From positions 4,383,001-4,447,000 of the forward strand of contig OX031063.1 of the NCBI GenBank assembly GCA_943736015.1: DNA of 64,000 nt, read 5' to 3'. This document shows, piece after piece, positions 3,728-64,000 of the stretch; position 1 is the first letter of the stretch; every line of letters starts with the position of its first letter. The translations under genes were made by a program, and so were the position numbers. The notes beneath the pieces were generated by a model. It was not told the origin of the DNA. It did not search any database and saw only the letters and a program-made list of their open reading frames with translations. The stretch comes from Tridacna crocea. Lineage: Eukaryota; Mollusca; Bivalvia; Cardiida; Cardiidae.

Positions 3728-4480
3728 GAAAAGGATTATGATCACTATATACAATAGTGGTTGCAGGAGAAGGAGCCATATATCTCGAAACGATGAAGAA
3801 CAAGAATGAGAGATAAACACTCTTCTTCTACTGTTGATTTGTTTTTCTGATATTTATTAAACTTTTTAGAAAAATAACTAATTGGATGAACTACACCATT
3901 ACAATCTTCTGGAAGCAAAACACCACCTGAATCAGTATAATTAGCATCTACTATAAACTTAAATTCTTTTCCAAAATTAGGAGCTGAAAGAACTGGTTCA
4001 CCTTTTAGTATGACTTTTACCCAATGATCGCTGTGAATGATGACATCATCGGTGTAGGCTCCACATTTGTCCAATCCACATAATTTATTATCATGTTGAT
4101 AAGACGAAATGTTACCGGCGAGTTGTTCATCTCAAAACGCATAACTTTGTATTGATAAAGTCCATTAGGGGTTACAAATGCAGATATCTCTTTAGCTCTC
4201 TCAGTGAGAGGCATTTGCTGAAATCCTTTCAGAAGATCAAATTTGTTAACATATTTTGCATGACCAATATTGTTAATGAAGTGATCTAGTCTTGGCACTG
4301 GAAACGAATCAGCCTTAGTCACAGTATCTGGCTTTGGTATAAGATTGCTGTGAGAACCTCATTGACTTTGACTAGGTTCAATGAAGTCATTGCCCTATAA
4401 ATACTTGATTTCCTTTTTAAGATGCTACAATTTCTTGTGATTCATTCGATATGGATGTTGTTTGAGTGTTTTTGAATCCA
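3728..4480 (-). pseudogene. Reverse transcriptase and RNase H (Gmr1-like pol)
   Basis: RT blocks on the minus strand include 'TKADSFPVPRLDHFI', 'KYVNKFDLLKGFQQMPL', 'KEISAFVTPNGLYQYKVM' and the catalytic 'YTDD' (about 4030-4050). RNase H follows directly with 'PVLSAPNF', 'FIVDANYTDSGGVLL' (first catalytic Asp kept) and 'HPISYFSKKFNKYQ'. The thumb and connection between YTDD and RNase H are almost wholly deleted. A frameshift splits the two RT pieces near 4020-4075. The reading ends in a frame-shifted 'YSDHNP' block at about 3730 where a family I repeat cuts it off. Upstream, decayed sequence to about 4480 still matches the RT N-terminal leader. It cannot encode an active enzyme. Confidence 0.85.
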
Positions 4481-4829
4481 ATGTCCTTATCATGGTATAT
4501 TTTATCTGTCCGTGTAGGAATATCAGGGAACAGGTGCTCATATTCAGAAATTAACTTTTTCCTTTGAATCCTCTTGATTATAATCCAAATGTGAAGGTTT
4601 TCTTATATCTAAATTTCTGAAAATTTCATAATTCTGAAGTTTTGAACAAATATAAGGTTAGACTTATCAAAGTTCAATTCTTTACGATTTATGTGTTCAT
4701 ATTTATGTGATTTCGACTTTGAGGGACTGAAGAAACTAAATTCATTTGTGAAATATTTGAATTATCCCTATTAACATATTCTTTGAATATATCAATATGA
4801 CATAATTACTTTTGCTTTCGCCTGCCAGG

Positions 4830-5160
4830 ACATTATTCCCAAAGGAATAAGAACCCAAATATCTCACTTGTAGAGGCCTACCAGGAATTGGTAGAAGAGC
4901 TAACACCTTATCTCCAGGTTTAAAATTTCTTTCTTTAGTATTCTTGTCCTATCTTACTTTCATGTTAAACAGAGTTTTCTCTAAATAATTAAGAATTTTG
5001 TGATAGGTTTTAATGACATCTAAATGACCTGACATGGATGTTTTATGAGCTAAGCTTAACATTTCTGATCTATGAGATTTGGTAAAGACAACTTGATGAT
5101 TGACAGCCCACTCATAATCAACAGAAACTTTGGGCTCCACTTTCTTATTAACTTTCCATT
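4830..5160 (-). pseudogene. Integrase zinc finger joined to GPY/F tail, core deleted
   Basis: At 4949-5140 the minus strand encodes 'VDYEWAVNHQVVFTKSHR', 'LSLAHKTSMSGHL' and 'VIKTYHKIL', the HHCC region of a Ty3/gypsy integrase. It is followed at once by a segment near 4830-4940 reading 'FKPGDKVL-LLPIPGRPLQ-RYLGSY', the GPY/F-type domain that normally lies after the catalytic core. The DDE core between them is gone. The block sits between protease and RT, which is the unusual Gmr1 order and not a rearrangement special to this copy (inference from the family). Confidence 0.75.
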
Positions 5161-5369
5161 CCTTATATAAAAACAGACAGATTCCAGTGAAAGATCAGTT
5201 TCACCAACTTGTTTTTGAAATAAAGGTGCTATTTCTGGGAGATTGTGTTGGTCTTCACTTAGTTTTGACCTTGACCTTGTATCATTGCCTTCATTAACTA
5301 AGGGTGAAGTTGTGTAATCAAATTCTGATGAACCACGTTTAGAATTTGTCTGACATTAAGACGGGTTTT

Positions 5370-5960
5370 ATGAAATGACTCCGGTTTTAAATAAACGACA
5401 CAACAAAGAATCAGATAAGTTAGTATCAGGCTGATTTTCAGACAAAATGGCCTTCTTTGCCATGGCTCTAGTAACTGCACATGATGGGTATAGGTCAGGA
5501 ATTTCTTCATCAGTCGGATTGGGTGATTGATCCATGCAAGGTGTGTCAGTTACAAGCAGCATTATCTCCGACTAAATCATTGCCTAATAACAAATGAGTA
5601 ACTTTAAAAGGTAATTGTTTTGGACACCAACAGTCACTGGAGCATTAATCAAGTCTGAGGACAAATAAATGTTATGAAGCGGAACGTAAACAAATCCACA
5701 TTCTACAACCTGAATGAGGACATTTGTCCAAGAAGAAGTCTTCTTAGAACAAGGCAGGACATCTGCTAAAATAAGATATTATGAAGCTACAGTTTCCCGT
5801 AAAATTTTAAAAACGGTAAACTGGGCAAAATCACTTTTTAGCGAGTGACACAAAACCATCTTATAAGAATGGTTCATAAATCTCTATAACACTATCAGTG
5901 TCGGGTACTTTGGCCTGGACAAGGGTTTGGTCCTTGAAACATGACTGACGTGTAGACTTC
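5370..5960 (-). pseudogene. Aspartic protease remnant and linker
   Basis: On the minus strand, 'KILRETVAS' at about 5790-5815 stands where the protease active site (D-T/S-G-A) should be; the Asp is Glu and the Gly is Val, so the enzyme is dead. It is followed by 'LILADVLP', then 'SDLINAPVTVGVQ' and 'THLLLGNDLVGDN' (about 5570-5660), the flap and C-terminal region. The linker 'DLYPSCAVTRAMAKKA' (about 5450-5510) leads to integrase. Several stops interrupt the frame. Confidence 0.7.
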
Positions 5961-5999
5961 AATGAAGTAAAGCCTTTAGGCTGAAAACTTTCATATTTA

Positions 6000-7417
6000 A
6001 ACCGCTTTCTTCTTTAAAACAGGACAGTCAGAAATAATATGGCCAGTTTCTTTGCAATAATTGCGAGTGGTTCTAGAGGAGGGATTTTGACTTCTGGCTT
6101 CATAGAGAGACTTGGGTCTGGGACCATGCTGATTGGAAACGTCATTAAATTTATTTCTAGATGAATGGAATGGGTTTCGAGGTTTGATTTATTCATGAAA
6201 CAGACCTTAACCCATTACCACACAATCCCTACTTTTGACGCCCCTGAGAAAGAAGTCTTTAGAAAACATTGTGGGAAAAGGAGAAAATGCTGGAAACCAG
6301 CATTTTCTCCTTTTTCCACAATGATTTCTACCCTTCACAAAATAAATTTCAAATTTTCAGTCACTTTTCATTTGTCGTCTGCAAAAGCTTTCGATTTGGA
6401 CAAACTGAAAATTTTGTTGTTTAGTACTGAGTTAGGCGTCAAGGCAAAACTGTCCGTTAAGCAAGCTGTCTCTTCTACAGTTTCAACTTTTTTCTCGTCT
6501 AAGACAGTTTTTTATATCTGAATTAATGTACCCTTTAAATTGTTCCAGTAACAGTAGTTGTCTAAGTTTTCAATGATCTTAATCTATTTTCTTTGAATGG
6601 CACCCCTATCAAATAATTGTTATTTAGTTCTAGCAAATTCAAGAGGGTTAGACCATTTTTTTCTGCAATTCCGAAATTTTTGTCTATATGCTTCATGTAC
6701 TAATTCATAAGACTTTAGAATTAATTCTTTAACATTATCATAATTAGAAAGCTGTTCATTACTTAGAAGAGGAAAATTATCGCGAGCCTTTCCAGTTACC
6801 AACTTTGCAAGAGTGAGGTCCAGCGTTCTTTTGACCATTCCAAATTTTTAGCAAGTATTTCAAAATGTAAAAAATATTTATCAATTTCCTGTTCTTGAAA
6901 TGGTGGAGCAAGTTTCCGGTGTTTTGTTATGTCATAATCATTAATCATATACAAAGATGTTTTTTCTTTATATTTCTCATTTTTTCATTCTCAACTAAAA
7001 CTGCCTATTCCCCCCTAATTCAGCATACCGATACTCTACTTCTTTATTTTTCATGCTTTCTTCTTGCTCTTATTCTTTTTCTTTCATCCATTCTTCTTTT
7101 TCTATCTGTTGTTTTAATTTTTCTGACTCGATATTGATTTCTATCTGTAGTTTTAATTTTTCTGACTCAAGATTGATTTCAACGTCTGTGTGAGACACAA
7201 GAATGAGACACAGAGCCGACGAGTCATGTATTTCTTCGTCAACTAAAAATTGACTAATGGAATTCTTAATTTCATTATTCAATATACATGTACATGTAGT
7301 ATCTTTCATAGCAGTTAGCTTTTAATGAGAAGCAAGATCTAATAAATCAGACTTTCTTGCCAAATTTAACGACTCCTGAGAAGGCTCAGCAATAAATTTT
7401 TCAAGATCAATAGACAT
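6000..7417 (-). pseudogene. Gag: coiled coil, capsid, CCHC knuckle
   Basis: The start at 7417 reads 'MSIDLEKFIAEPSQES', the probable Gag N-terminus. A Lys/Glu-rich coiled coil lies at about 7070-7250. The capsid segment at 6620-6838 contains 'LVTGKARDNFPLLS' and 'ILKSYELVHEAYRQKFR', resembling the SCAN-like capsid of vertebrate and mollusc gypsy elements. A zinc knuckle 'CNYCKETGHIISDC' is at about 6018-6065. A MITE (6207-6435) separates capsid and knuckle, and there are internal stops, so the protein is not made intact. Confidence 0.75.
6207..6435. mobile_element. TTAA palindromic MITE, copy 2
   Basis: It begins TTAACCCATTACCAC, has the hairpin core at about 6265-6325, and ends 'tactgagttag', where the last TTAA has one change. 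It is inserted in the Gag pseudogene between capsid and zinc knuckle, so it post-dates the retroelement. Confidence 0.8.
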
Positions 7418-10765: not shown

Positions 10766-12082
10766 CTAATTCACCTGAGTCTCACCGTTTTCACTCGCCG
10801 TATCGGTACGCTCAGTGTCATCACTTTCAGCCTCCATTCCATCCTTGGCACTGAGTTCCATATCAGTAAGCTCAGTGTCTTCACTTGTAATATCAGTTCC
10901 TTCCTCCTTGTTGACCTCAATAATAAACCCTTTAAAGGCTTCTTCAATTGCAATGTCCGTTTTTCTAAATCTTTCTTCTGCCTCACGAACATGTCTGAAG
11001 CAGCTGTCCCACTCAGATGGAGTTACGCTATCAATTGCCTCCTGGATCAACGTCATGGCATCCTTCAATTTGAACGTTAGGTTTGAAGCAGCTATCTGAT
11101 GTTTGATGATTCCCCACACCATTTCAATTACGTTGAGTTCCGTATGATACTGAGGTAGTCGAAGACAGGTGTGGCCAAACTGTTCCAAAGTAGAGTCAAG
11201 ATCGTACTTCGATGCAGGCTTGTGTCCTTTGCAAAGTTCAAGAAGTTTCGGTTTTAACATATTTTCTGCAAAAGGGATGTTATGTCTTTCCAGCCAAGCC
11301 TGTATATCCGCTTTTGAGGTGTAATGCGTAGGACATTTTTCACGCTGGATATTATGGTATGGCGCATTCTCTACCACCAACACTGCATTTTTTGGCAAAT
11401 TCGGTATCAGTTTCTCGTTCAGCCATTTTGTGAAGTTTTGGCCGATCATTTCCAACAGGTTGTCAACTGTGGAGCAGTTGGCTTTGAAAACAAGACCGGC
11501 ACCTTTTAGAAATCCCTCCGAGGATCCAGCATGAAGAACTATAAGATGTTCACCATGGGTAAATGGCACTGCGAGGGTTGCATTGTCAGACTGCCAACAT
11601 TTTTGAGCGCTGTGTGTGGAATGGACCAAAGTATACACAATATGCCTACCAGAATCTCTGTATTCTTTTATTTTCAGGAGGAAGTTAATCCTTGCAATAA
11701 CTATATCAGGTCTTTCTGTTAGTAGACGTCTGTTTGATCCGCATTTCCTCCAAGTAAATCCCAGTTCTTTTAAAAGCTTACGTAAATAGGTTAAACCGCT
11801 TGGAAAATCCATACTATTCCGTAAAGCTTTCTGTATCGACTTGGCCGTTGGAATAGTCTTTCCATTTGCTAGAATTTTATAAACAGTCCTGCGGATTAAG
11901 TCTCTGTCCAAGCTTTCCAGGGCATTTTGCCTGCTTTTCTTTGGTTTGGGATGAGATGATGACGATGCCTGGGTTAGCGTCTTACATGTGCTCACAGGCA
12001 GTCCGCTGTAATTCGCTACTCTCTGCGAAACCTGATGCACTGGAACTTGTAAGCACCCAGATTCTTTCTCCTCCTTACACAC
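10766..12082 (-). CDS. Tc1/IS630-like DDE transposase, open but catalytically altered
   Basis: A single open frame of 438 codons. Residues about 12-110 form helix-turn-helix and winged-helix DNA-binding regions ('VSQRVANYSGLPVSTCKTL', then 'RRTVYKIL'). The RNase-H-fold core spans about 145-335: 'GRHIVYT' (145-151), 'LIVLHAGSSEGFLKGAGLVF' (180-199), 'VLVVENAPYH' (234-243) and 'LNVIEMVWGIIKHQI' (316-330). The family normally has an Asp-Glu pair right after 'YT'; here the sequence runs straight to 'LVHSTH', as if a few codons were lost in frame. The second Asp ('xDNAPYH') is Glu-238; the third acidic residue, Glu-320, is kept. The C-terminus (390-438) is very acidic. No inverted ends of its own were found. 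Either a recently inactivated transposon or a co-opted gene; the intact length among decayed repeats favours recent origin or selection. The start at 12082 is the first Met; an upstream exon is possible. Confidence 0.8.
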   Translation of the reverse strand: MCKEEKESGCLQVPVHQVSQRVANYSGLPVSTCKTLTQASSSSHPKPKKSRQNALESLDRDLIRRTVYKILANGKTIPTAKSIQKALRNSMDFPSGLTYLRKLLKELGFTWRKCGSNRRLLTERPDIVIARINFLLKIKEYRDSGRHIVYTLVHSTHSAQKCWQSDNATLAVPFTHGEHLIVLHAGSSEGFLKGAGLVFKANCSTVDNLLEMIGQNFTKWLNEKLIPNLPKNAVLVVENAPYHNIQREKCPTHYTSKADIQAWLERHNIPFAENMLKPKLLELCKGHKPASKYDLDSTLEQFGHTCLRLPQYHTELNVIEMVWGIIKHQIAASNLTFKLKDAMTLIQEAIDSVTPSEWDSCFRHVREAEERFRKTDIAIEEAFKGFIIEVNKEEGTDITSEDTELTDMELSAKDGMEAESDDTERTDTASENGETQVN

Positions 12083-13089: not shown

Positions 13090-14065
13090 TAAGAACTATT
13101 CTAAAAAACTTTCTAATTCAAGGGCAAATAACTCCAGTTATTCTGTTCCGATTACACCCATATTCAAACACATCCTAGATCTTAGAGTCATATATATTTT
13201 GACCAAGTTTGGTATTGATTGGTCGATATTTATAGATAATAGAGTGTAACCAAAGTCAAATATAGCATTTCTTCAAATTCAAGGGCAGATAACTCCAGTT
13301 TTTCTGGTCCAATTACATCCATAATTGAACTCATCAAAGACCTTATGGTCATGTACATTTTGACCAAGTTTTGTGCTGACTGGTTGATAATTACTGAGTG
13401 TAAACAAAGTCAACAATAGCAATTTTTCTAATTCAAGGGCAAATAACTCGTCTTTCTGGTCCGATTACACCCATAATCAAACTCATCCGAGATCTTATGG
13501 TCACATATATTTTGACCAAGTTTGGTGCTGACTGGTTGATATTTGTAGATGCTAGTTTGTTTGAATAGTGTTTTACGCCGCTTTCAACGTTATTTCAGTC
13601 ATATCATGTCGACAGTTCACATATTCATGTTTCCTGGGTTTCACCAGTACTAGGCTAGGGTCTGAAGTGTCTTGCCCAAAGACACTCTTGTGAAAAAACC
13701 CAGTGGAGTTAGTGAGGTTCGATCCTAGGACCTCCAGACCACGAATCCTGCACCTTACCACTGAGCCACACAGGACCCTTGTTGTAGATGCTAGAGTGTA
13801 AACAAAGTGAAATATAGCAATTTTTCTAATTCAAGGGCTTGTAACTCCAGTCGTTCTGGTCCGATTACACCAAAAACAAATTCTTCCGAGATTTTATGAT
13901 CATATATATTTTGACCAAGTTTGGTGCTGATTGGTTGATATTTGTAGATGCTAGAGTGTAAACAATGAAAATGTGAACACACGCCGCCGGACGAACGGAC
14001 GGACGTTGGACGGTGAGTGATCACAATAGCTCACTCTTAGCACTTCCTGCTCAGGTGAGCTAAAA
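13090..14065 (+). repeat. Helitron-like repeat, family III, forward
   Basis: At least four units of 'ttctaattcaagggcaaata', 'ctggtccgattacacccata', 'tattttgaccaagtttggt' and 'agtgtaaacaaag'. A GGACGAACGGACGGACG tract follows, then the ending 'gctcaggtgagctaaaaa'. A SINE is inserted at 13556-13781. The repeat ends 14 bp from the splice donor of the exon at 14080. Confidence 0.7.
13556..13781 (-). mobile_element. SINE, second tRNA-head family, with 13-bp target duplication
   Basis: Flanked by the direct repeat TTGTAGATGCTAG at 13543-13555 and 13782-13794. That word is part of the host repeat unit, which proves the insertion. On the minus strand the head has A box TGGCTCAGTGG and a B-like 'ggatcgaacc'. 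The other end carries the 3' core 'gaaagcggcgtaaaac', like the S1 SINEs but with a different head. Confidence 0.85.
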
Positions 14066-14319: not shown

Positions 14320-14488
14320 CTAAATGTAAATTGACATATTTTCAATACTTCTTGCAGTTGACTTTGCATATTGAAGCAAAAAAGCTGCTGACATTATGCT
14401 TCTGGGCATTTGCTTTCTTCTACCCCATGTTTACAACCTCTAAACCCTATACATGTACCAAACATCCCGTGTTTACATAGATCGGAGG

Positions 14489-14694
14489 TGTTACGGGAGA
14501 CCACTCCTTCCTGCATGGCATACTCCCGATTTAAAGACAATACCTGGCTACTGCGTCAGGGAGATATCTCTTTGGCTCAGTGGTTAGGGTATTGGCTTTG
14601 CGTCCGGGAGTTCGGAGTTCGAATCCCGCTCCGATCCTTATTTCTGCCATGCATTTATTCATTTGTTTCTTTGTTACGGACTTCGTTCGTAAGA
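14489..14694 (+). repeat. TRIM LTR 1 (206 bp)
   Basis: Starts TGTTACGGGAGACC and ends TTCGTAAGA; the outer 7 bases are inverted with one mismatch (TGTTACG / CGTAAGA). LTR 3 (15147-15352) has the same length. LTR 2 (14811-15030) is 220 bp because 'gatatctcttga' is duplicated near 14885-14908. Confidence 0.88.
14573..14626 (+). promoter_or_regulatory. Internal RNA polymerase III promoter in TRIM LTR
   Basis: A box TGGCTCAGTGG (14573-14583) fits TRGYNNARNNG fully; B box AGTTCGAATCC (14616-14626) fits GGTTCGANTCC at all but one base. The spacing of 32 bp is normal for tRNA genes. The same pair lies in LTR 2 (14909-14919, 14952-14962) and LTR 3 (15231-15241, 15274-15284). Confidence 0.8.
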
Positions 14695-14712
14695 TGGGGG
14701 CTCGTCCGGGAT
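14695..14712 (+). other. Primer-binding site, tRNA-Pro
   Basis: TGGGGGCTCGTCCGGGAT directly after the LTR is complementary to the 3' end of eukaryotic tRNA-Pro, a primer used by several retroviruses and retrotransposons. The second copy at 15031-15048 has one C-to-T change. Confidence 0.9.
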
Positions 14713-15499
14713 TGGCCATTGAGCCATTAATCCCATTTGTTGTCCAAAATCGGACTTCCTGCCTAATAAGGCTTTGAGTCATCAATAAATGATGACTTTA
14801 AGAGGGGGTGTGTTACGGGAGACCACTCCTTCCTGCATGGCATATACTCCCGATTTAAATACAATACCTGGCTACTGCGTCAGGGAGATATCTCTTGAGA
14901 TATCTCTTTGGCTCAGTGGTTAGGGTATTGGCTTTGCGTCCGGGAGTTCGGAGTTCGAATCCCGCTCCGATCCTTATTTCTGCCATGCATTTATTCATTT
15001 GTTTCTTTGTTACGGACTTCGTTCGTAAGATGGGGGCTCGTCTGGGATTGGCCGTTGAGCCATTGGTCCCATTTGTTGTCCAAAATTGGACTCCCTGCCT
15101 AATAAGGCTTTGAGTCATCAATAAATGATGACTTTAAGAGGGGGTGTGTTACGGGAGACCACTCCTTCCTGCATGGCATACTCCCGATTTAAAGACAATA
15201 CCTGGCTACTGCGTCAGGGAGATATCTCTTTGGCTCAGTGGTTAGGGTATTGGCTTTGCGTCCGGGAGTTCGGAGTTCGAATCCCGCTCCGATCCTTATT
15301 TCTGCCATGCATTTATTCATTTGTTTCTTTGTTACGGACTTCGTTCGTAAGAGGAGGTAGCATGCTTTTGAAAAATAACGTGGAAACAAAGGTAAAATGC
15401 AAGACAAAACAAGAAGGCCTTGATGGCCCAGTATCGATCAACTTCCCAATAAATTTGCTAAACATATAATCGAAAGTCATTAAACCAAGACATCTTTAT

Positions 15500-41213: not shown

Positions 41214-41438
41214 TTAAGCCATTACCACACAATCCCTTCTTTTGACGCCCATGAGAAAGAAGCCTTTAGAAAACGTGGGAAAAGGAGAAAATGCTGGTAA
41301 CAAGCATTTTCTCCTTTTTCCACAATATTTTTAGTCTTCCCAAATCAAATTTCGATTCTTCTGTCACATTTATTTTGTCGTCTGCAAATGCTTTTAATTT
41401 GGACCAGTCTATAAATTTGTCGTTTGGTAAAGATTTAA
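41214..41438. mobile_element. TTAA MITE, copy 11
   Basis: TTAA at 41214-41217 and 41435-41438, left 'gccattaccacacaatccc', core at about 41275-41330, right 'cgtttggtaaagatttaa'. A truncated reversed copy (41435-41560) follows and shares the right TTAA. Confidence 0.78.
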
Positions 41439-41559
41439 GCAAACGACAAAATTTTAGACTGGTCAAAATTGAAAGCATTTGCAGATAACAAAATGAATGT
41501 GATTAACTAATTGATGTTTTTTTTAAGGAATGGGAAAAGGAGAAAATGCTGGTTTTATC

Positions 41560-42763
41560 ATACTATTTTAAAAGTTAGTAAGACAAACATTCTGACCAAA
41601 TTTCAAGATTATTGGACTGAGAATGTGGCCTCTAGTGTATATACAAGATTTTCTTAAGGTTTCAACCAGTCCCCTGACATGACCTTTTTTCAAGCTCATT
41701 TAAGCTATGATCATGACAGCATTCTGACCAACTTTCATGAGTATTGGACAGAAAATGTGGTTTCTGGAAGGGACACAAGGTTTTTCTAAGATTTGACCTA
41801 GTGATCTAGTTTTTGACCCAACATGACCCATTTTCAACCTCGTCTCAGATATCATCAAGAAAAACAATCTGACCATATTTTTCACGTGTATTGGACATAA
41901 AATGTGGCCTCCAGAGCATATACAAGGTTTTTCCGAGATTTGACCGGGTAACCTCGTTTTTGACCCGACATGATCCTTTTTCTCAAACTGGTACTGAAGA
42001 GCATCAAGGCAATCATTCTGACCAACTTTCAAGAGTATGGGACATAAAATGTGGCCTCTAGAGCGTACACAAGCCTTTCTAAGATTTGGCCTAGTGATCT
42101 AGTTTTTGACCAAATATGGCACATTTTGAAACTCCTCTCAGATATCATCAAACAAACATTCTGACTAATTTTCAAGAGTATCGGACTGAAAATATGGCGT
42201 CTAGAGCTACACAAGCTTTCTCTAAGATTTGACCTAGTCACCTAGGTTTTGACCCAACATGACCCATTTTCAGACTCATCTGAGATATCAACAAGACAAA
42301 CATTCTGACCAACTTTTATGAGTATCGGACTGATAACGTGGCCTCTAGAGCATACCTAAGTTTTTTTTTCTTTTTTCTTTTTTTAATAGATTTGACCTGG
42401 TAACCTAGTTTTTGACCCAACATGACCCTTTTTCAAACTTATCTGAGATACTATCAAGGCAAACATTCTGACAAACTTTCAGAAGTATTGGACATAAAAT
42501 GTGGCCACTAGAGCATGCACGAGGTTTTTCTAAGATTTGACCTAGTGACCTAGTTCTTGACTCGACAGTTTCAAAATTGTTAGGGTTATCATAAAGGCAA
42601 ACATTCCGACCATATTCAATGAGTATCTGACAAAAATTGTAGCCTCTAGAGGATACACAAGATAAAAAGTTGATGACAGACTACAGATGATGGCTGCTGG
42701 ACGACGGACGCAGCATTATCACAAAACTTTACTATGAGCACTTTGTGCTGAGGTGGGCTAAAA
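41560..42763 (+). repeat. Helitron-like repeat, family V, forward
   Basis: Eight units of about 145-150 bp ('acattctgaccaactttc', 'aaaatgtggcctctagag', 'tttgacctagtgacctag'). A GGACGACGGACG tract follows, then hairpin GAGCAC-TTT-GTGCT (42736-42749) and CTAA (42758-42761). It ends only about 17 bp from the TAZ2 exon border. Confidence 0.8.
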
Positions 42764-42779
42764 ATTGTGAGAGGCTTAC

Positions 42780-43353
42780 CAATGTTGGAAACAGATCCTC
42801 TTTGGTCAGTTTTCTGGGCTTCAAGATCAACCTGCATTGCTGCAGCCTGTGGGGCTCCAGCAGGCTTCCCACTCGGAATTGGCTGAGTGCCAACAGAGTT
42901 CGCTGGTGGAGGTGCAGGGGCTGATGACTTTGTTCTTTGCATGGTCAGCGTTTGTTGTATCATCATCTGAGTATGCTTTAACCGCTGTTCTATACGCTGT
43001 AGGCAGATTTTTGTCTTAATTTGTAGACAGAATGGCACTTTACACTTTTTGTCATTGCAATGTTTAGCATGGTAGCAGCACAAAGCAATAAACTGTTTGC
43101 AAATGTCACAACTAGAATTTGTCATCTTGTGACAATTCTTAGTGTGAGCAACAGTACGTTTCAACTTAATACAACTAAGAAACTGACAACTAGTGTTTCT
43201 GCACTGACATGAATGCACCAGGGACTGAATAACCCGCTGAATGGCCTGCTGGCGATTTTCTAGAGTATCTTGTTTGTCTCCAGAAGGAGGGCCATAGTTC
43301 AGATCCGTGTCTTGACCATCTTTCTGGTTATCCTTCTTACACAAGTCAGAGTC
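42780..43353 (-). CDS. TAZ2 zinc-finger exon (CBP/p300-related)
   Basis: Acceptor 'atttattgaag' above 43353 and donor GTAAGCCTC below 42780. 574 bp, frame open, exiting in phase 1. Residues about 30-115 form a complete TAZ2: 'IQRVIQSLVHSCQCRNTSC', 'TVAHTKNCHKMTNSSCDICK' and 'FIALCCYHAKHCNDKKCKVP' with all Cys/His ligands of the three HCCC sites. A long helix follows ('RIEQRLKHTQMMIQQ'). In CBP/p300 this domain binds transactivators such as p53 and lies after the acetyltransferase domain. The rest (about 130-191) is a Pro/Ala-rich tail. No HAT or bromodomain exon was seen upstream to 64 kb, though introns there may be large. Retained ligands suggest a functional exon. Confidence 0.88.
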
Positions 43354-43456
43354 CTTCAATAAATAAAAAATACACAGTACAATAATGAGCTATAGTAAAA
43401 TTAAAACTTCTCTACTTTCTAAAATTCTAATCTCTGACTAGCCACAGCAAATAGCT

Positions 43457-44011: not shown

Positions 44012-44240
44012 TTAACCCATTACCACACAATCCCTACTTTTGACGCCCCTGAGAAAGAAGCCTTTAGAAAACATTGTGGGAAAAGGAGAAAATGCTGGTA
44101 ACCAGCATTTTCTCCTTCTCCCACAATGTTTTCTACCCTTCACGAAACAAATTTCAAATTTTCAGTCACTTTTATTTTGTCGTCTGCAAATGCTTTCAAT
44201 TTGAACCAGTGTAAAATTTTGTCGTGTGGTAATGAGTTAC
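44012..44240. mobile_element. TTAA MITE, copy 12a
   Basis: TTAACCCATTACCAC start, near-perfect core at about 44072-44130, end 'tggtaatgagttac'. First of three adjacent copies. Confidence 0.8.
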
Positions 44241-44456
44241 TAAACTACAAAATTTTGGACTTGTCCAAATTGAAAGCATTTGCAAACGACAAAATAAAAG
44301 TGACTGAAAATTTGAAATTTGTTTTGTGAAGGGTAGAAAACATTGTGGGAAAAGGAGAAAATGCTGGTTACCATCATTTTCTCCTTTTCCTACAATGTTT
44401 TCTGAAAGCTTTTTCTCAGGGGCATCAAAAGTAGGGATTGTGTGGTAATGGGTTAA
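44237..44456. mobile_element. TTAA MITE, copy 12b, inverted
   Basis: Starts 'ttactaaactacaaaa' and ends 'tgtgtggtaatgggttaa' (TTAA 44453-44456). Opposite orientation to 12a, sharing the junction tetramer. Confidence 0.8.
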
Positions 44457-58232: not shown

Positions 58233-58958
58233 AATGGAGAATTCAGATCAGTGCCCAAGAATGAACTGGGATGCGAGGGACTTTAAAAAGTTTCGAGAAC
58301 ACGCAGAGTTTATGTTTGGTGGACCATTTGAGAAAAAGTCAGAGGAAGCCAAGTGCAACTACTTGATGTTGTGGATGGGAGAAAAAGGCAGAGAAATTTT
58401 CTACACTTGAGAACTCACCCAAGATCATCATCAGAACTTAAATAATTACTTCGAAGGATTTGAGAAATAACAGCAGATTCCTACTTCGGTCTAGAATTCA
58501 AAAGGACAGTGAACTTTTTGACGAGTATTTTACAGAGCTCAAGTTGCTCATGAAGGACTGTGATTACCCTGTTGACATACAGGAAGAGCTAATACGTGAT
58601 CACATTGCGTTCGGCATTAAAAGTAATCAAGTAAGAGAGAAGCTCATACATGAAGGCTCAGACCTCAGTCTGCAGAAATGTCTGGACATTGCCAGAACAA
58701 GCGAGATCAGTCAATCACAACTGCGATCCATGGACAATCCAGGAGCCGTAGAAATTGTACGAGGAAAAGACCATAAAAATCGAAGCCGAAACAAACGAGC
58801 AAAACAGACGACTGTACATAAACAGTCAAACAGATCAGAAAGTCAATGTGACAAATGTGGACTTGTACACTGTCATAGTTCAAATAAACGCTGTCCAGCA
58901 CTAGGACAAAAGTGTCCATATTGTGCAAGGTATAATCATTTTGAAAAAAATGTGTTGT
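58233..58958 (+). pseudogene. Gag (capsid and zinc knuckles), interrupted
   Basis: The ATG at 58233 starts 'MENSDQCPRMNWDARDFKKF'. A stop falls at about 58409 and the frame shifts before 58460. Capsid-like sequence continues ('FDEYFTELKLLMKDCDYP', 'RDHIAFGIKSNQVREKL', 'CLDIARTSEISQSQL'). A basic linker leads to a Cys/His cluster 'CDKCGLVHCHSSNKRCPALG' and 'CPYCARYNHF' (about 58845-58945), the nucleocapsid zinc fingers. The last Cys is lost at the frameshift into the protease segment. Confidence 0.8.
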
Positions 58959-59449
58959 AAACGGATTAAGGATAACAAATCAAAGACAGTAAATGAGGTA
59001 AGGTCAAACCTTTTTAACTCTTCTGATTCTGTTGATCCTGAAATTACAGTAAATACTGTGCAGCATGCTAAAATAACAAATCAAGCTTTTGTAGATATTA
59101 GTATTTGGAATGGTACACTGAAAATGAAAATTGATACAGGTGCTCAGGTAAATGTCATTCCAACATTGCAATACTACAGTCTACCAAATTTCGCACGACT
59201 GCAGCACACACGCAGGCGCTTGAAAGCTTATGATGGTAGTCATTTAAAGGTTGAGGGTTGAAGGGTAAGGTCACAAAGGAAGAATTCTACATTGTAGATA
59301 CGCCTACTTCACACCCTATTCTTGGTCTTGAAACGTGCATGTCGATAGGTCTACTAATAAAATTGATTCATACTGCGGACATTGACAGACCTGCTATGAC
59401 AAGACAAGAGGTATTAGACAAATACAAAGATGTATTTACTGGTATATGA
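58950..59449 (+). pseudogene. Aspartic protease segment
   Basis: 'FVDISIWNGTLKMKIDTGAQ' and 'VNVIPTLQYY' (about 59090-59185) keep the D-T-G-A catalytic site; 'SHPILGLETCMSIGLL' is the C-terminal hydrophobic loop with the usual I-L-G. A stop at 59259-59261 splits it, with overlap of the next frame. Confidence 0.75.
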
Positions 59450-60140
59450 ACTTTACCAGGTGAATGTGAAATTCATCTTCGACACGACACCAAACCTGTC
59501 ATACACCCGCCTCGGAAAGTTCCAATTGCGACTAGAAACAAACTTAAGAAACAGCTGGACGAAATGGAGAAATCGCATGTTATCTGTAATGTTACGGAGC
59601 CTACAGAATGGGTTAACATTCTAGTGACTCTACAAAAGAGTAACGGGACATTGCCGATATGTTTGTGTCCGAAAGACTTGAACGACGCGATAAAGAGACC
59701 GCATTATCCAAGCAAGACGATCAACGACATACTGCCAGACTTGGCAGGAGCAAAGGTTTTTTCTAAGCTAGATGCTAGAAGTGGTTACCGGTCGATCAAA
59801 GTAACAGAAAAATCGTCAATGTACATGACGTTTAACACGTCATTCGGGAGATACAGATTTCTTAGACGGCCATTTGGAATCAAATCGGCAAATGACTTGT
59901 TCCAGCAGAAAATGGACGAATGCTTGGAAAATCTACCTGGTGTTAAGACCATCGTAGACGACATTGTGGTGTATGGAAAGGATCAAGCCACACTTGAAAG
60001 AAATCTGGACTTACTATTGACCAGATGCAGGGAGAAGGATATAAGGTTAAACCCAGAAAAGACGAAAATAGGAAAGCAAGAAATACAGTTCTTTGGTCAC
60101 ATGTTAACGGCAGGACTAATCAAAGTACTGAAAGTACTGA
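59450..60140 (+). pseudogene. Reverse transcriptase (palm and fingers)
   Basis: After a frame change near 59564: 'VTEPTEWVNILVTLQK', 'LPICLCPKDLNDAIKRPHYP', 'FSKLDARSGYRSIKV', 'RYRFLRRPFGIKSA', the catalytic 'TIVDDIVVYGKD' (about 59950-59985) and 'FFGHMLTAG'. It breaks off at about 60117-60140 where an insert begins and resumes in the connection domain at 62705. Confidence 0.82.
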
Positions 60141-61244
60141 AGGCCAGGAAATTGAGGATACGAAACAATGTAAGAGGTCAATTTTAATTAATACAAACAG
60201 GTAGAGGGACAGGGATACAAGCGGATTCCTCTAAGCCCCTGGAATTCTTGGTTTTAACAGGAAATTTTGAACTGATACAAGAAAGCACATGCCAAAAACT
60301 AATTAACCCAGAGCTAGGCATGTGCTCACAGTGATGGGGTGCTTGATAATGGCTTGGAATACTTAGTAATTTGTCGTGCTTGTAAACAATCTCAAGTCAA
60401 AATTGAACTATTCAATCGTTGCAATACCAACTTTGGTTATCTAAATTTTTTGAAAACATGTGAAGTCCTGAATGACGTTATTTTTCACATTTATGAGTCG
60501 TCTATTAACAGTAGCATATTTTTCCCCAATATTTATCCTATTCAAATGACAAGTTTCTTTATTGTCAATTACGTTGCACAGTAGATTGTATACATGTATT
60601 AAAAATGTTTTATCACTATTTTAATTGCCAAATCAACTACCTCTATTTAATTTCCATTGATGACCCACATGAAATTAGTAATCACTTCACGAGAGATTAT
60701 AAGACCAACATATAATTACAATTAAAAACTGAGATTTATAAGCAACTTTTACAGATGATAAATTAAGGTGCTTCATCAGAAGCAAAATTTAACTTAGTGT
60801 TAACCAAAAGAGCCTTGAAAAACATTGTGATTTTGTCTCAAAATCAGGATGCTCTGTGGACAACACGCTTTTTAAATCAGCCTGGCTGGTGAAATTAAAT
60901 TTTGAGAGAGAGAGAGAAAATAGGCTGTTTGAAAGATATTTGTAGCTTGCACTGGTCAGTATGCCACCAATCCCCAGATTTTCAGAATTATCAACATTGA
61001 AAGTATCTTGCAGACAACTGAAGTGTTGCTAAAATGATGGTTTTATCAGTGAAATATAGTTCAGTTGGTAGTGAAGTACACTTTAAGAGTCCACAAGCTC
61101 TGTCAATTTCCTATTGAGGAAAAAAAGGTATTGTGATAGGGTACAATTCTCTCTCATCACATATTAAACATACATGTCTCTAAAATTCAAGTTCTTTGAA
61201 ACTCTGTAAATAAGTGTTGTTTTTTTTTTCCTCAAAAATCTCCC

Positions 61245-61394
61245 TTAACCAAAAGACATTTTTTTTTCTGGAAAAAAGTTGAAAGCAGTTGCAGAAGACA
61301 AATCAAATGTTAATAAAAAAGTAACATTCCTCTTTCAAATGCTAGAAAATATTGTGGGAAAAGGAGGATATGTTTTTGTGGAAAAGGGTTTCAA
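61245..61394. mobile_element. TTAA MITE, copy 14, partial
   Basis: 'ccttaaccaaaagac' at the left, 'gttgcagaagacaaatcaaa', one hairpin arm 'attgtgggaaaaggag' and 'gaaaagggttt' at the right. The second arm is gone. Confidence 0.5.
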
Positions 61395-61528
61395 TTAACA
61401 GTGACCAGAGATGTGATTCAATAAAACACATTTTATGGGATCGATCTGGTGACTTCACGATCGAGGGCTGGACATGAATCTCGTCTTGGGTGATGGAAAA
61501 TGTACAAATAGGAAAGGGCAGGAAAATA

Positions 61529-61531
<3 letters not shown>

Positions 61532-61563
<32 letters not shown>
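61532..61563. repeat. (GA)n microsatellite
   Basis: Sixteen uninterrupted GA units. The Ser/Leu-rich ORF on the other strand is an artefact. Confidence 0.95.
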
Positions 61564-61571
<8 letters not shown>

Positions 61572-61933
61572 AAATCTTCATACAATAAATCAAGATAATG
61601 GGCATATATAAATATATAAAAAAAAACAACATTAAATGACAAGCAAACACCACAGAAAAAAAAAAAAAAACATATATATATATAAGCATTTATTTGGTTT
61701 CAAATCAAAGTCAATCAAATACATATTTTAAAAATCACACAGGTGTAATCTGTTTGTGACAGGTGTAAAAGGTGTGAAAAACATCTTATCAGTGTGAAAT
61801 AGACAGTTATAAACAATGGATAAAGGTGACTAATACACATAAATGTACGTACTAAAGCCAACGAAGTTTCAAAAATAATTTTTATAGATAACTTGAATAA
61901 CGATATGGATGAAATTTGATGTTGGGGTCGATT

Positions 61934-62117
61934 TCTCTAAAATTTTATTTGGGGACGATTTCACCAGATTTCTCCGGAGAAATCGTTTACAAGCAGTTTG
62001 GGGATGATTTTTCCAGGGGCAGTTTTCTGTAAAATTTTATTTGGGGACGATTTCACCAGATTTCTCCGAAGAAATCGTCTCCAAGCAGTTTGGGGACGAT
62101 TTTTCCAGGGGCCGATT
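61934..62117 (+). repeat. 92-bp tandem duplication with small palindrome
   Basis: Two units share 'attttatttggggacgattt', 'caccagatttctcc' and 'gatttttccagggg'. The first contains the perfect palindrome GATTTCTCCGGAGAAATC. Confidence 0.75.
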
Positions 62118-62700
62118 TCTCCAGCAGTCGAAAATTGCTATCACAACAGCGTATGGTATGCAGAGAAGTAGACACACTCGTGGGAAATGGTTGATTTTTG
62201 TCGGTGTAGAAAGTACCACAGTCAAAGTACCCTAGATTTAGTCGATATATATAAGAAAAAGTGATAAATTTAACACAGGCCAATATTCTATATGTACATG
62301 TACATGTAGTTGCTTTATTTACAATCGCATTTCAGCGGAGACGCGTTTTGTGACACATATGTTCAAATGTCAACACAACAATATAGATATTAACCGTATA
62401 GCGCGTAGGAATACACAACTGCCAGATAAAGCTAAGTTTATTAGGTTACCCCTTTATTAGGTCGATGTTAATGACGAAAACGGGATAAAAACACACACTC
62501 GTCAGTTATTTAAGGGTCGTAATACCCTTGCAATACCACGGCATTTTGCAGATGAAAGCTTTGAGGGAAACTAGTTGTTTTGGCGGACTCAGCTATATCG
62601 AGTGGACACACCGTTCAACATTTTGTCTGAAAGTAGTCCGGAAAAGGCAGCTTACGATCCCTATAGGCAAGGGAATCCCTTGAGAGGGATTTCCTGGCCT

Positions 62701-63560
62701 AAAAATGGTCCCTGCAAAAGTCAAAGCCATTCGGGAAATGCCGTTCCCTCAGTCAAAATCAGAATTGCAGACAGTTCTAGGTATGATTACCTATCTGCAA
62801 CGTTTTGCCCCTTGTTTAGCAGAGATGACTAGTCCCATGAGACAACTGCTAAAAAACAATGTCGAATTCGAGTGGAATGAGGCATGTAAAAATGCGTTCA
62901 CAAAGATCAAAGATGTGATAACGAAAACCCCAGGACCTGTACTGACGTACTTTGACCCTAAGAAGGACATTACGTTACAGGTAGACGCATCCAAATTTGG
63001 ACTAGGAGCAGCATTGCTGCAAGATGATAGACCAGTGAGCTATGCATCAAAGTCACTGACTCAGACAGAAATCAATTATAGCCAAATTGAAAAAGAGTTG
63101 TTTGCTATCATGTTTGGATGCACACGATTTCATCAGTATGTTTATGGCAGACCCATTAACGTAGAGACAGATCATAAGCCGTTAATAGCAATATTTAAGA
63201 AAAAAATAAAGACAGCGCCGTCTCGTCTGCAACGTATGATGTTGTCACTGTCAAGATATGACATCAATCTGACATACATACCAGGGAAAGAAATCCCTTT
63301 AGCCGATACTCTGTCGAGAAAGTTTTTACCTGACACTTATCCTGACTTGATAGACGGACTTGACGAACATGTAAATGGAGTTATGTCATGTATTCCTGTA
63401 AGTGATCAGAAAATGGATTATCTCAGAGCTGAGACAAAGACAGACAGAAATATGCAGCTATTGATTGAGGTCATAAATAATGGTTGGCCAGAAAACAGGA
63501 CAGACTGTCCAAGAGAGCTGATAGAGTTCTGGAACTACAGGGACGAACTGACCGTAATTG
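62701..63560 (+). pseudogene. RT connection and RNase H
   Basis: Continuous frame: 'KVKAIREMPFPQSKSELQT', 'LGMITYLQRFAPCLAEM', then RNase H 'DITLQVDASKFGLGAALLQD' (first catalytic Asp), 'YSQIEKELFAIMFG' (Glu) and 'VETDHKPLIAIF' (second Asp), followed by 'RYDINLTYIPGKEIPLADTL', where the last Asp-like position is Ala-Asp. This stretch has no stop and is the best-preserved part of the element. Confidence 0.85.
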
Positions 63561-64000
63561 ACGGAATAGTTCTGAAGGGGACAAACATTTTTGTTCGAGA
63601 ACTATGTAGACCATTCATGCTAGAAAAATTCATGACGCGCATTTGGGTATTGAAAAATGCACGCAGAGAGCCCGAAATTACTGTTTTGGCCAAACATATC
63701 AAAAGACATCAAACAGCTCATTCAAAAATGTTACATTTACCTTGAGCACAGAAATTCAAATGTGAAGGAACCGTTACAATGCAGTAATATTCCTGAGGGA
63801 CCATGGCAGATAGCTGCCACAAACACTTTTCATTGGAATGATGCTAATTACATCTTACTCGTACTACAGTAAATATTTTTAAGTTAGTATATTGCCTGAC
63901 TCTAGATCAGCCACAGTCATAGACCGCCTGAAAAGTTACATGAGTGGGCATGGTATTGTGCAGAAGCTAATTAGCGACAACGCCATACAATACACTTCTC
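63561..64000 (+). pseudogene. Integrase, N-terminal zinc finger and start of core
   Basis: Frame changes near 63630. The second frame gives 'RARNYCFWPNISKDIKQLIQ' and 'KCYIYLEHRNSNVKEP'; the second Cys of the HHCC finger is Tyr (CYIY). 'QIAATNTFHWNDANYILLV' follows, where the first core Asp (x-T-D-x-F) is Asn. 63900-64000 in a further frame reads 'VIDRLKSYMSGHGIVQKLIS' and 'DNAIQYTS', containing the second core Asp. It is cut by the window edge. Confidence 0.78.

Follow-up and report, generated by a model that had tools for sequence, protein, structure and literature searches.

The question raised by this locus is what kind of element carries both the ends of an LTR retrotransposon and the promoter motifs of a tRNA gene, and how it came to have three long terminal repeats (LTRs). 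The stretch of DNA analysed, hereafter the window, comprises 64,000 nucleotides from the giant clam Tridacna crocea (GenBank assembly GCA_943736015.1, contig OX031063.1, positions 4,383,001 to 4,447,000 of the forward strand), a member of the Cardiidae within the Imparidentia and Euheterodonta. In keeping with this host, COX1 from the 29,009-bp contig C31 shows 97.3% identity (433 of 445) with a Tridacna derasa protein and 84% with a cockle (Lymnocardiinae) cluster. A sequence-only reading had described here a miniature LTR retrotransposon (TRIM) with tRNA-type promoter motifs for RNA polymerase III (pol III), and this description holds, as A and B boxes are present in every LTR of the window element. 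The copy is very probably a recent, dimeric (three-LTR) insertion of a TRIM of the Helenus type, for which a pathway involving pol III, a Gypsy helper and a dimeric cDNA is proposed below.

The element occupies positions 14489-15352 of the forward strand and reads LTR(206)-116 bp-LTR(220)-116 bp-LTR(206) (Table 1). The LTR lengths and the purine tracts ahead of the next LTR were found as previously described, and each internal part measures 116 bp as claimed, but there are two such parts, arranged in a three-LTR tandem rather than in a simple LTR-internal-LTR unit. LTR 1 and LTR 3 are identical at 206 of 206 positions. LTR 2 differs from them by one substitution, a 2-nt indel and a 12-nt duplication (14885-14896), and its length of 220 bp results from the duplication plus 2 nt. 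The two internal parts differ by 6 substitutions over 116 sites, and each ends in the purine tract AAGAGGGGG, followed by TG and the next LTR. GGAGG borders the entire element on both sides and can be read as a 5-bp target duplication or possibly as GGAG plus one G contributed by the purine tract. The window copy shows neither a poly-A nor a simple tail.

The 18-nt primer site occurs in the window once exactly and once with 1 mismatch, where 0.01 places are expected from shuffles. The first site (14695-14712) is fully complementary to the 3' end of a tRNA-Pro(AGG) gene called by ARAGORN in the same genome, together with the CCA that is joined to tRNAs after transcription. The 18-base tRNA-Pro primer site proposed earlier was therefore confirmed in full (18/18) at the first site, but the second site agrees at 17/18 positions. 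The second of two tRNA-Pro candidates fetched from the genome (L107) received no ARAGORN call.

Table 1. Features of the three-LTR element and its immediate flanks, in positions of the window.
Feature	Positions	Strand	Remarks
5' target-site duplication GGAGG	14484..14488	+	5 bp, or 4-bp GGAG plus one extra G
LTR 1	14489..14694	+	206 bp; first bases TGTTACGG, last bases CGTAAGA
A box TGGCTCAGTGG, LTR 1	14573..14583	+	exact
B box AGTTCGAATCC, LTR 1	14616..14626	+	exact
Internal part 1	14695..14810	+	116 bp, without TTTT
Primer-binding site 1	14695..14712	+	18/18 complement of tRNA-Pro(AGG), same genome
Polypurine tract AAGAGGGGG ahead of LTR 2	14800..14808	+	
LTR 2 (middle)	14811..15030	+	220 bp
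Extra 12-mer GAGATATCTCTT in LTR 2	14885..14896	+	marker of the 220-bp LTR subfamily
A box, LTR 2	14909..14919	+	exact
B box, LTR 2	14952..14962	+	exact
Internal part 2	15031..15146	+	116 bp
Primer-binding site 2	15031..15048	+	17/18
Polypurine tract ahead of LTR 3	15136..15144	+	
LTR 3	15147..15352	+	206 bp, identical to LTR 1
A box, LTR 3	15231..15241	+	exact
B box, LTR 3	15274..15284	+	exact
3' target-site duplication GGAGG	15353..15357	+	
Nearest downstream TTTT, host flank	15366..15369	+	possible pol III terminator

All three LTRs carry the A box TGGCTCAGTGG and the B box AGTTCGAATCC without mismatch, 32 bp apart, as had been reported. A looser version of the pair was met in 0 of 2,000 mononucleotide-shuffled LTRs, which rules out a chance origin of the boxes. 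Neither ARAGORN nor Rfam called a tRNA in the window, nor did ARAGORN in the fetched TRIM loci that were scanned, and the tRNA-likeness of the LTR is therefore confined to the two boxes. A promoter derived from 5S rRNA, of the Cassandra or Ajax type, was not found either: no Rfam model reached its gathering score anywhere in the window, and positions 14400-15450 gave no 5S match even at E values up to 5. Further tRNA-type box stretches lie at 13753-13768 (-) and 55953 (+) of the window and possibly belong to tRNA-derived SINEs; the 11-base A box of the former is the same as that of the TRIM. A hairpin at 14857-14935 matches a miRNA precursor model below gathering score and probably reflects the 12-nt duplication of LTR 2, and hairpins with such matches at 41387-41479 and 44136-44334, again below gathering score, are probably inverted-repeat elements.

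Searches of the 1.05-Gb assembly (31 contigs) revealed a large family. The 21-nt junction of LTR and primer site was found at 2,748 places with up to 2 mismatches (reversed control, 0), the 3' end of the LTR at 6,040 (reversed control, 12) and the A-box 21-mer at 7,324 (reversed control, 0). Exact-pattern scans of viral and prokaryote collections returned 0 matches. The sequence-only reading had allowed for a SINE array or a chance SINE within an LTR, to be recognised by copies that are mostly solo units lacking a primer site or by LTRs that mostly lack the tRNA-like part. Because the A-box 21-mer is recovered at more places than the LTR 3' end, the tRNA-like part is not absent from the majority of LTRs. 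Solo copies seem to be in the minority. Their share is an estimate from 100 exact LTR ends listed on contig C1, of which 25 have no exact junction within 700 bp. Eight of the 25 were fetched and proved to be 5 solo LTRs flanked by 4-bp duplications, a 3' LTR, a truncated copy and a diverged one. Both outcomes speak for the sequence-only reading.

Loci L001-L096, without L083 and after removal of duplicates, yielded 108 chained TRIM pieces, of which 69 that were complete and LTR-bounded were kept and 39 that were incomplete or internal-only were excluded. The 69 comprise 67 multi-LTR copies (27 two-LTR, 32 three-LTR and 8 four-LTR) and two single LTRs, L064 and L078, which are diverged and without duplication and were excluded from the LTR counts, leaving 182 of 184 LTRs. 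Target duplications of 4 bp flank 65 of the 67 complete copies (26/27 two-LTR, 31/32 three-LTR and 8/8 four-LTR), the exceptions being the window copy, with 5 bp, and L050, with no duplication. As the sequence-only reading had anticipated, complete copies are LTR-internal-LTR units bounded by target duplications; its GGAGG is present on both sides of the window copy, but this copy departs from the family norm, and a 5-bp duplication as a family trait is ruled out. The primer site is exact in 104 of 115 internal parts, many of the copies having been picked by this very junction, and the purine tract AAGAGGGGG lies near the end of 105 of the 115. Of the 27 complete two-LTR copies analysed, 9 have identical 5' and 3' LTRs, and the first 23 average 2.26 changes per LTR pair, a low divergence that points to recent activity.

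Three- and four-LTR copies are over-represented in this locus set because of how the loci were chosen: the first 30 came from a ranking by likeness to the window copy, itself three-LTR, and a further 13 were taken as tandems. Among exact-junction clusters on C1, 6 of 85 are tandem, which is a lower bound since both junctions had to match exactly. In the least biased sample, 3 of 28 elements are tandem (L028/L040, L041 and L018/L045-L047), the 28 being obtained, by reading of the match table and the genome positions, from the first 30 listed junctions minus 2 (L028 and L040 are one place, as are L045, L046 and L047). Head-to-head inverted TRIM fusions were also seen, at 2466-2787 of L030 and 1254-1511 of L031, with the joint in or beside the tRNA-like part of the LTR.

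By its structural features the window element is a Helenus-type TRIM (TRIMp3), of a class already described by Kojima (2024, PMC10886601). The novelty claimed for a tRNA-type promoter in the LTR of an animal TRIM is therefore not upheld. Helenus, whose TRIMs have a tRNA-like sequence in the LTR, makes up TRIMp3 together with Cassandra and Ajax (PMC10886601); its members measure 311-1263 bp, have 4-bp duplications in animals and presumably use Gypsy as helper, tRNA-Pro is among the primers used by bivalve families, and tandem arrays were noted in one fish family (PMC10886601). The clam TRIM shares with Helenus the A and B boxes in the LTR, a primer site for a tRNA 3' end (tRNA-Pro in bivalves), the purine tract and the 4-bp duplications, and its two-LTR unit (206 + 116 + 206 = 528 bp) lies under the Helenus limit of ~1.3 kb. 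The A box TGGCTCAGTGG is exact in 178 of the 182 young-family LTRs and agrees with the Helenus A-box pattern TRGCY..YGG. The B box differs: it is mostly AGTTCGAATCC, with AGTTC (165 of the 182 young LTRs), or else GGTTCGAATCC (13 LTRs; together 178/182), whereas Kojima reports GGTTC as conserved, a motif found in the B box of 13 of 18 diverged LTR stretches.

The clam family also differs from published molluscan Helenus in its host, which is heterodont and not pteriomorphian. Molluscan Helenus was described from five orders of Pteriomorphia and its origin placed in the ancestor of that group (PMC10886601). The main text of that paper contains no word beginning heterodont, venerid, imparident, tridacn or clam, and among the later papers searched for Helenus a single meeting report mentions the name. 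Because molluscan Helenus is listed there from Pteriomorphia only, the giant clam family extends its range, as far as literature searches go, to heterodont bivalves. Related systems share parts of this design. Cassandra (PMC7215508, PMC10853983) is likewise small and non-coding, with a pol III promoter inside its LTRs and tandem arrays that have LTRs in common, but the promoter is of the 5S rRNA type and the hosts are plants; plant TRIMs other than Cassandra have no 5S sequence according to PMC4717578. Ajax, like the clam element, is an animal TRIM with the promoter of a small-RNA gene within the LTR, but it is 5S-derived, occurs in nemerteans and has 5-bp duplications (PMC10886601).

TTTT, the usual stop signal of pol III, is absent from the sense strand of the window element, the first one occurring 13 bp past its end. 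This absence alone is weak evidence for pol III use, because shuffles of the 322-bp unit are also free of TTTT in 0.7% (dinucleotide) and 7.4% (mononucleotide) of cases, as are 6.2% of the 322-bp windows here. Moreover, the absence is not kept in relatives: TTTT is present in 7 of 182 young LTRs, 2 of 115 internal parts and 10 of 18 diverged LTRs, which rules out strict avoidance as a lasting constraint. Pol III activity of the LTR is suggested by the box motifs, and the pol III promoter function of Helenus was left unproven by Kojima (PMC10886601).

Two other accounts of the boxes can be weighed against these data. The tandem look of the window copy and its tRNA boxes might suggest a SINE array, or a satellite built from a tRNA-derived SINE, but copies at independent sites share a primer site, a purine tract, LTR ends and 4-bp duplications, isolated LTR ends include solo LTRs with duplications of the same length (5 of 8), and the window copy ends without a poly-A or simple tail. 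A SINE array, which would consist of solo units with A-rich or simple tails and variable-length duplications, is refuted by the genome-wide LTR-bounded copies and solo LTRs with 4-bp duplications, and this account retains a vanishingly small probability. Less easily dismissed, although unlikely, is that the boxes are the inert fossil of a SINE caught in the LTR of an ordinary TRIM that is transcribed by pol II. The lack of a detected tRNA fold agrees with it, and so do older relatives, in which the start of the LTR is more conserved than the boxes: among 18 diverged LTR stretches (up to 90% identity; L075 left out as a near copy of L076), the first 11 bases of the LTR hold rank 1 among 196 windows for conservation, against ranks 23 and 69 for the A box and B box. 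Yet both boxes are recognisable in all 18 (up to 3 mismatches each) although the gap between them ranges from 28 to 53 nt, and in the young family the boxes show less change per site than the other stretches (A box, 0.0020; B box, 0.0090; positions 1-71, 0.0125; 72-84, 0.0216; between the boxes, 0.0251; 139-206, 0.0141). Identity of the diverged LTRs to the window copy is 0.909 in the A box, 0.859 in the B box and 0.794 between them, with 0.802 in positions 1-71, 0.878 in 72-84 and 0.855 in 139-206; the B-box figure is depressed because the window copy has AGTTC where 13 of the 18 have GGTTC. By these figures the A box appears better preserved than the stretches next to it and the B box better than the sequence separating the two, neither being the most conserved part of the LTR.

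The origin of the third LTR has precedents in plants. Tandem LTR elements are ascribed to recombination (PMC4528315), tandem TRIMs are reported from 35 of 43 plant genomes (PMC4717578), both tandem routes are held possible (PMC7215508), and single insertion is suggested with both routes left open (2025, PMC11899658). Plant tandem TRIMs resemble those of the clam in having at least three LTRs with shared internal LTRs, many with target duplications, according to PMC4717578 and PMC4528315. Template switching during reverse transcription, giving a dimer, is put forward by Sabot & Schulman (2007, PMC1950507) for complexes of Angela, Squiq and Opie, which, like the window copy, have three LTRs, one target duplication and outer LTRs that are alike; those are four cases in large grass elements, whereas the clam has dozens of copies of a miniature animal element.

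The alternative to the insertion of a ready-made dimer is a gain of the third LTR in an element already inserted, whether through unequal crossing over among its own LTRs or through entry of a circular cDNA into a resident LTR. After crossing over, the middle LTR would have to be a mosaic made from both outer ones. In the window copy, however, LTR 1 equals LTR 3 and not LTR 2, yet 6 sites separate the two internal parts. The outer LTRs of the first 23 three-LTR copies are on average 2.17 changes apart, against means of 4.04 and 4.26 between the middle LTR and either outer one (two-LTR pairs for comparison, mean 2.26 in 23 copies). Across the 32 three-LTR copies, most of which were chosen by similarity to the window copy, family-shared variants are odd in the middle, 3' and 5' LTR in 101, 38 and 30 cases, and private changes are evenly spread (16, 21 and 15). 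Permutation of LTRs within elements gave p = 0.0004 for the middle-LTR excess, and p = 0.002 when the window copy and its marker columns were removed (85/36/30); the six C1 three-LTR copies also found by the junction list give 19/9/3. In 6 three-LTR copies the middle LTR differs at both of its ends from an outer pair without any shared-variant difference, a pattern given neither by a single crossover nor by one with a circle in a resident LTR. Copy by copy, 11 of the 32 are clean, 12 are mixed, 7 are odd in an outer LTR only and 2 show nothing, and the mixed and outer-odd copies are in keeping with crossing over. So are 13 of the 27 two-LTR copies, whose LTRs differ by at least one shared variant, indicating that exchange after insertion or further switching also occurs; in five of them (L039, L055, L056, L069 and L079) 3 to 8 family-shared variants differ between the 5' and 3' LTR, and these may be reduced dimers or exchange products. 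The combination of alike outer LTRs, a different middle LTR and one target duplication favours a single insertion for many copies, not all, and a post-insertion origin of the three-LTR structure appears quite improbable.

The mark of the 220-bp subfamily, a 22-nt pattern of the 12-nt duplication, was found at 25 exact genomic places, 18 of which form 9 pairs at a spacing of 334-336 bp, as expected from that spacing of two-LTR copies with 220-bp LTRs. Read as such copies, the pairs rule out a dimer-only lineage marked by the duplication. Since the 220-bp LTR subfamily appears to exist as two-LTR copies, the window copy can be taken as a dimer of two subfamilies.

For such a dimer inserted as one unit, the following pathway is proposed. 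Pol III would start in the 5' LTR, at a point upstream of the A box, and its transcript would cross the element without meeting TTTT and terminate in host DNA. The TRIM RNA would be packaged by proteins of a Ty3/Gypsy element, its copying would be primed by tRNA-Pro, and the cDNA would be integrated by a borrowed integrase. In the window copy, and in a substantial share of the remaining three-LTR copies, two different RNAs would have given one dimeric cDNA and one integration. Dimer copying would remake the outer LTRs as an identical pair, with the middle LTR retaining the variants of the other parent.

The search for a helper covered 22 exact primer sites whose preceding base is A, itself following a base other than G; only one of the 22 is not a TRIM. 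This site, on contig C13 (locus L077/L083), belongs to a Gypsy element, which we take to be a Ty3/Gypsy of the Gmr1 type. It has identical 560-bp LTRs with the ends TGTTA...TAACA, a 4-bp duplication (CTGG) and a tRNA-Pro primer site; the LTR contains TATAAA and AATAAA motifs and no match to the A and B boxes. Positions 224-4995 of L083 encode an integrase ahead of the reverse transcriptase, with a SCAN-like domain in the first frame, and the best 120 matches include similar pol proteins from hemichordate, echinoderm, coral and shrimp records. The element resembles the TRIM in its tRNA-Pro primer site and 4-bp duplication, but its 560-bp LTR lacks the boxes, its primer site lies 5 nt off the LTR and its interior is unrelated beyond 21 nt, of which 18 are dictated by the tRNA. 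Because only these 21 nt of interior are in common, the autonomous partner envisaged by the sequence-only reading is represented by a weak candidate.

Remains of other elements are scattered through the window. Degraded Gypsy remains at 3730-6912 (-) are related to the candidate helper L083 at 64-74% at the DNA level, and broken frames at 58460-63745 (+) are, by their look, presumably a Gypsy-like gag and reverse transcriptase/RNase H. A 438-aa DDE transposase frame at 10766-12082 (-) has relatives at 51% identity in Mercenaria mercenaria, and a 237-aa frame at 42646-43359 (-) is one that we take to resemble the TAZ zinc finger of p300/CBP.

What is new here is a heterodont bivalve host beyond the published molluscan range of Helenus, a very large young Helenus family (~2,700 junctions) and enough marked subfamilies for testing how tandem TRIMs form. 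A wider reading, possible but somewhat doubtful, is that the pol III promoter sits within an LTR lacking a terminator, that the RNAs are so short that dimer copying is routine (3 of 28 elements tandem), that dimers joining different subfamilies integrate as one unit, that many tandem TRIMs are products of reverse transcription and not of crossing over, and that the clam lineage stands at the root of, or is a horizontal guest across, the pteriomorphian and heterodont bivalves. If dimers of different subfamilies are indeed formed routinely, tandem TRIMs would be a natural record of template switching.
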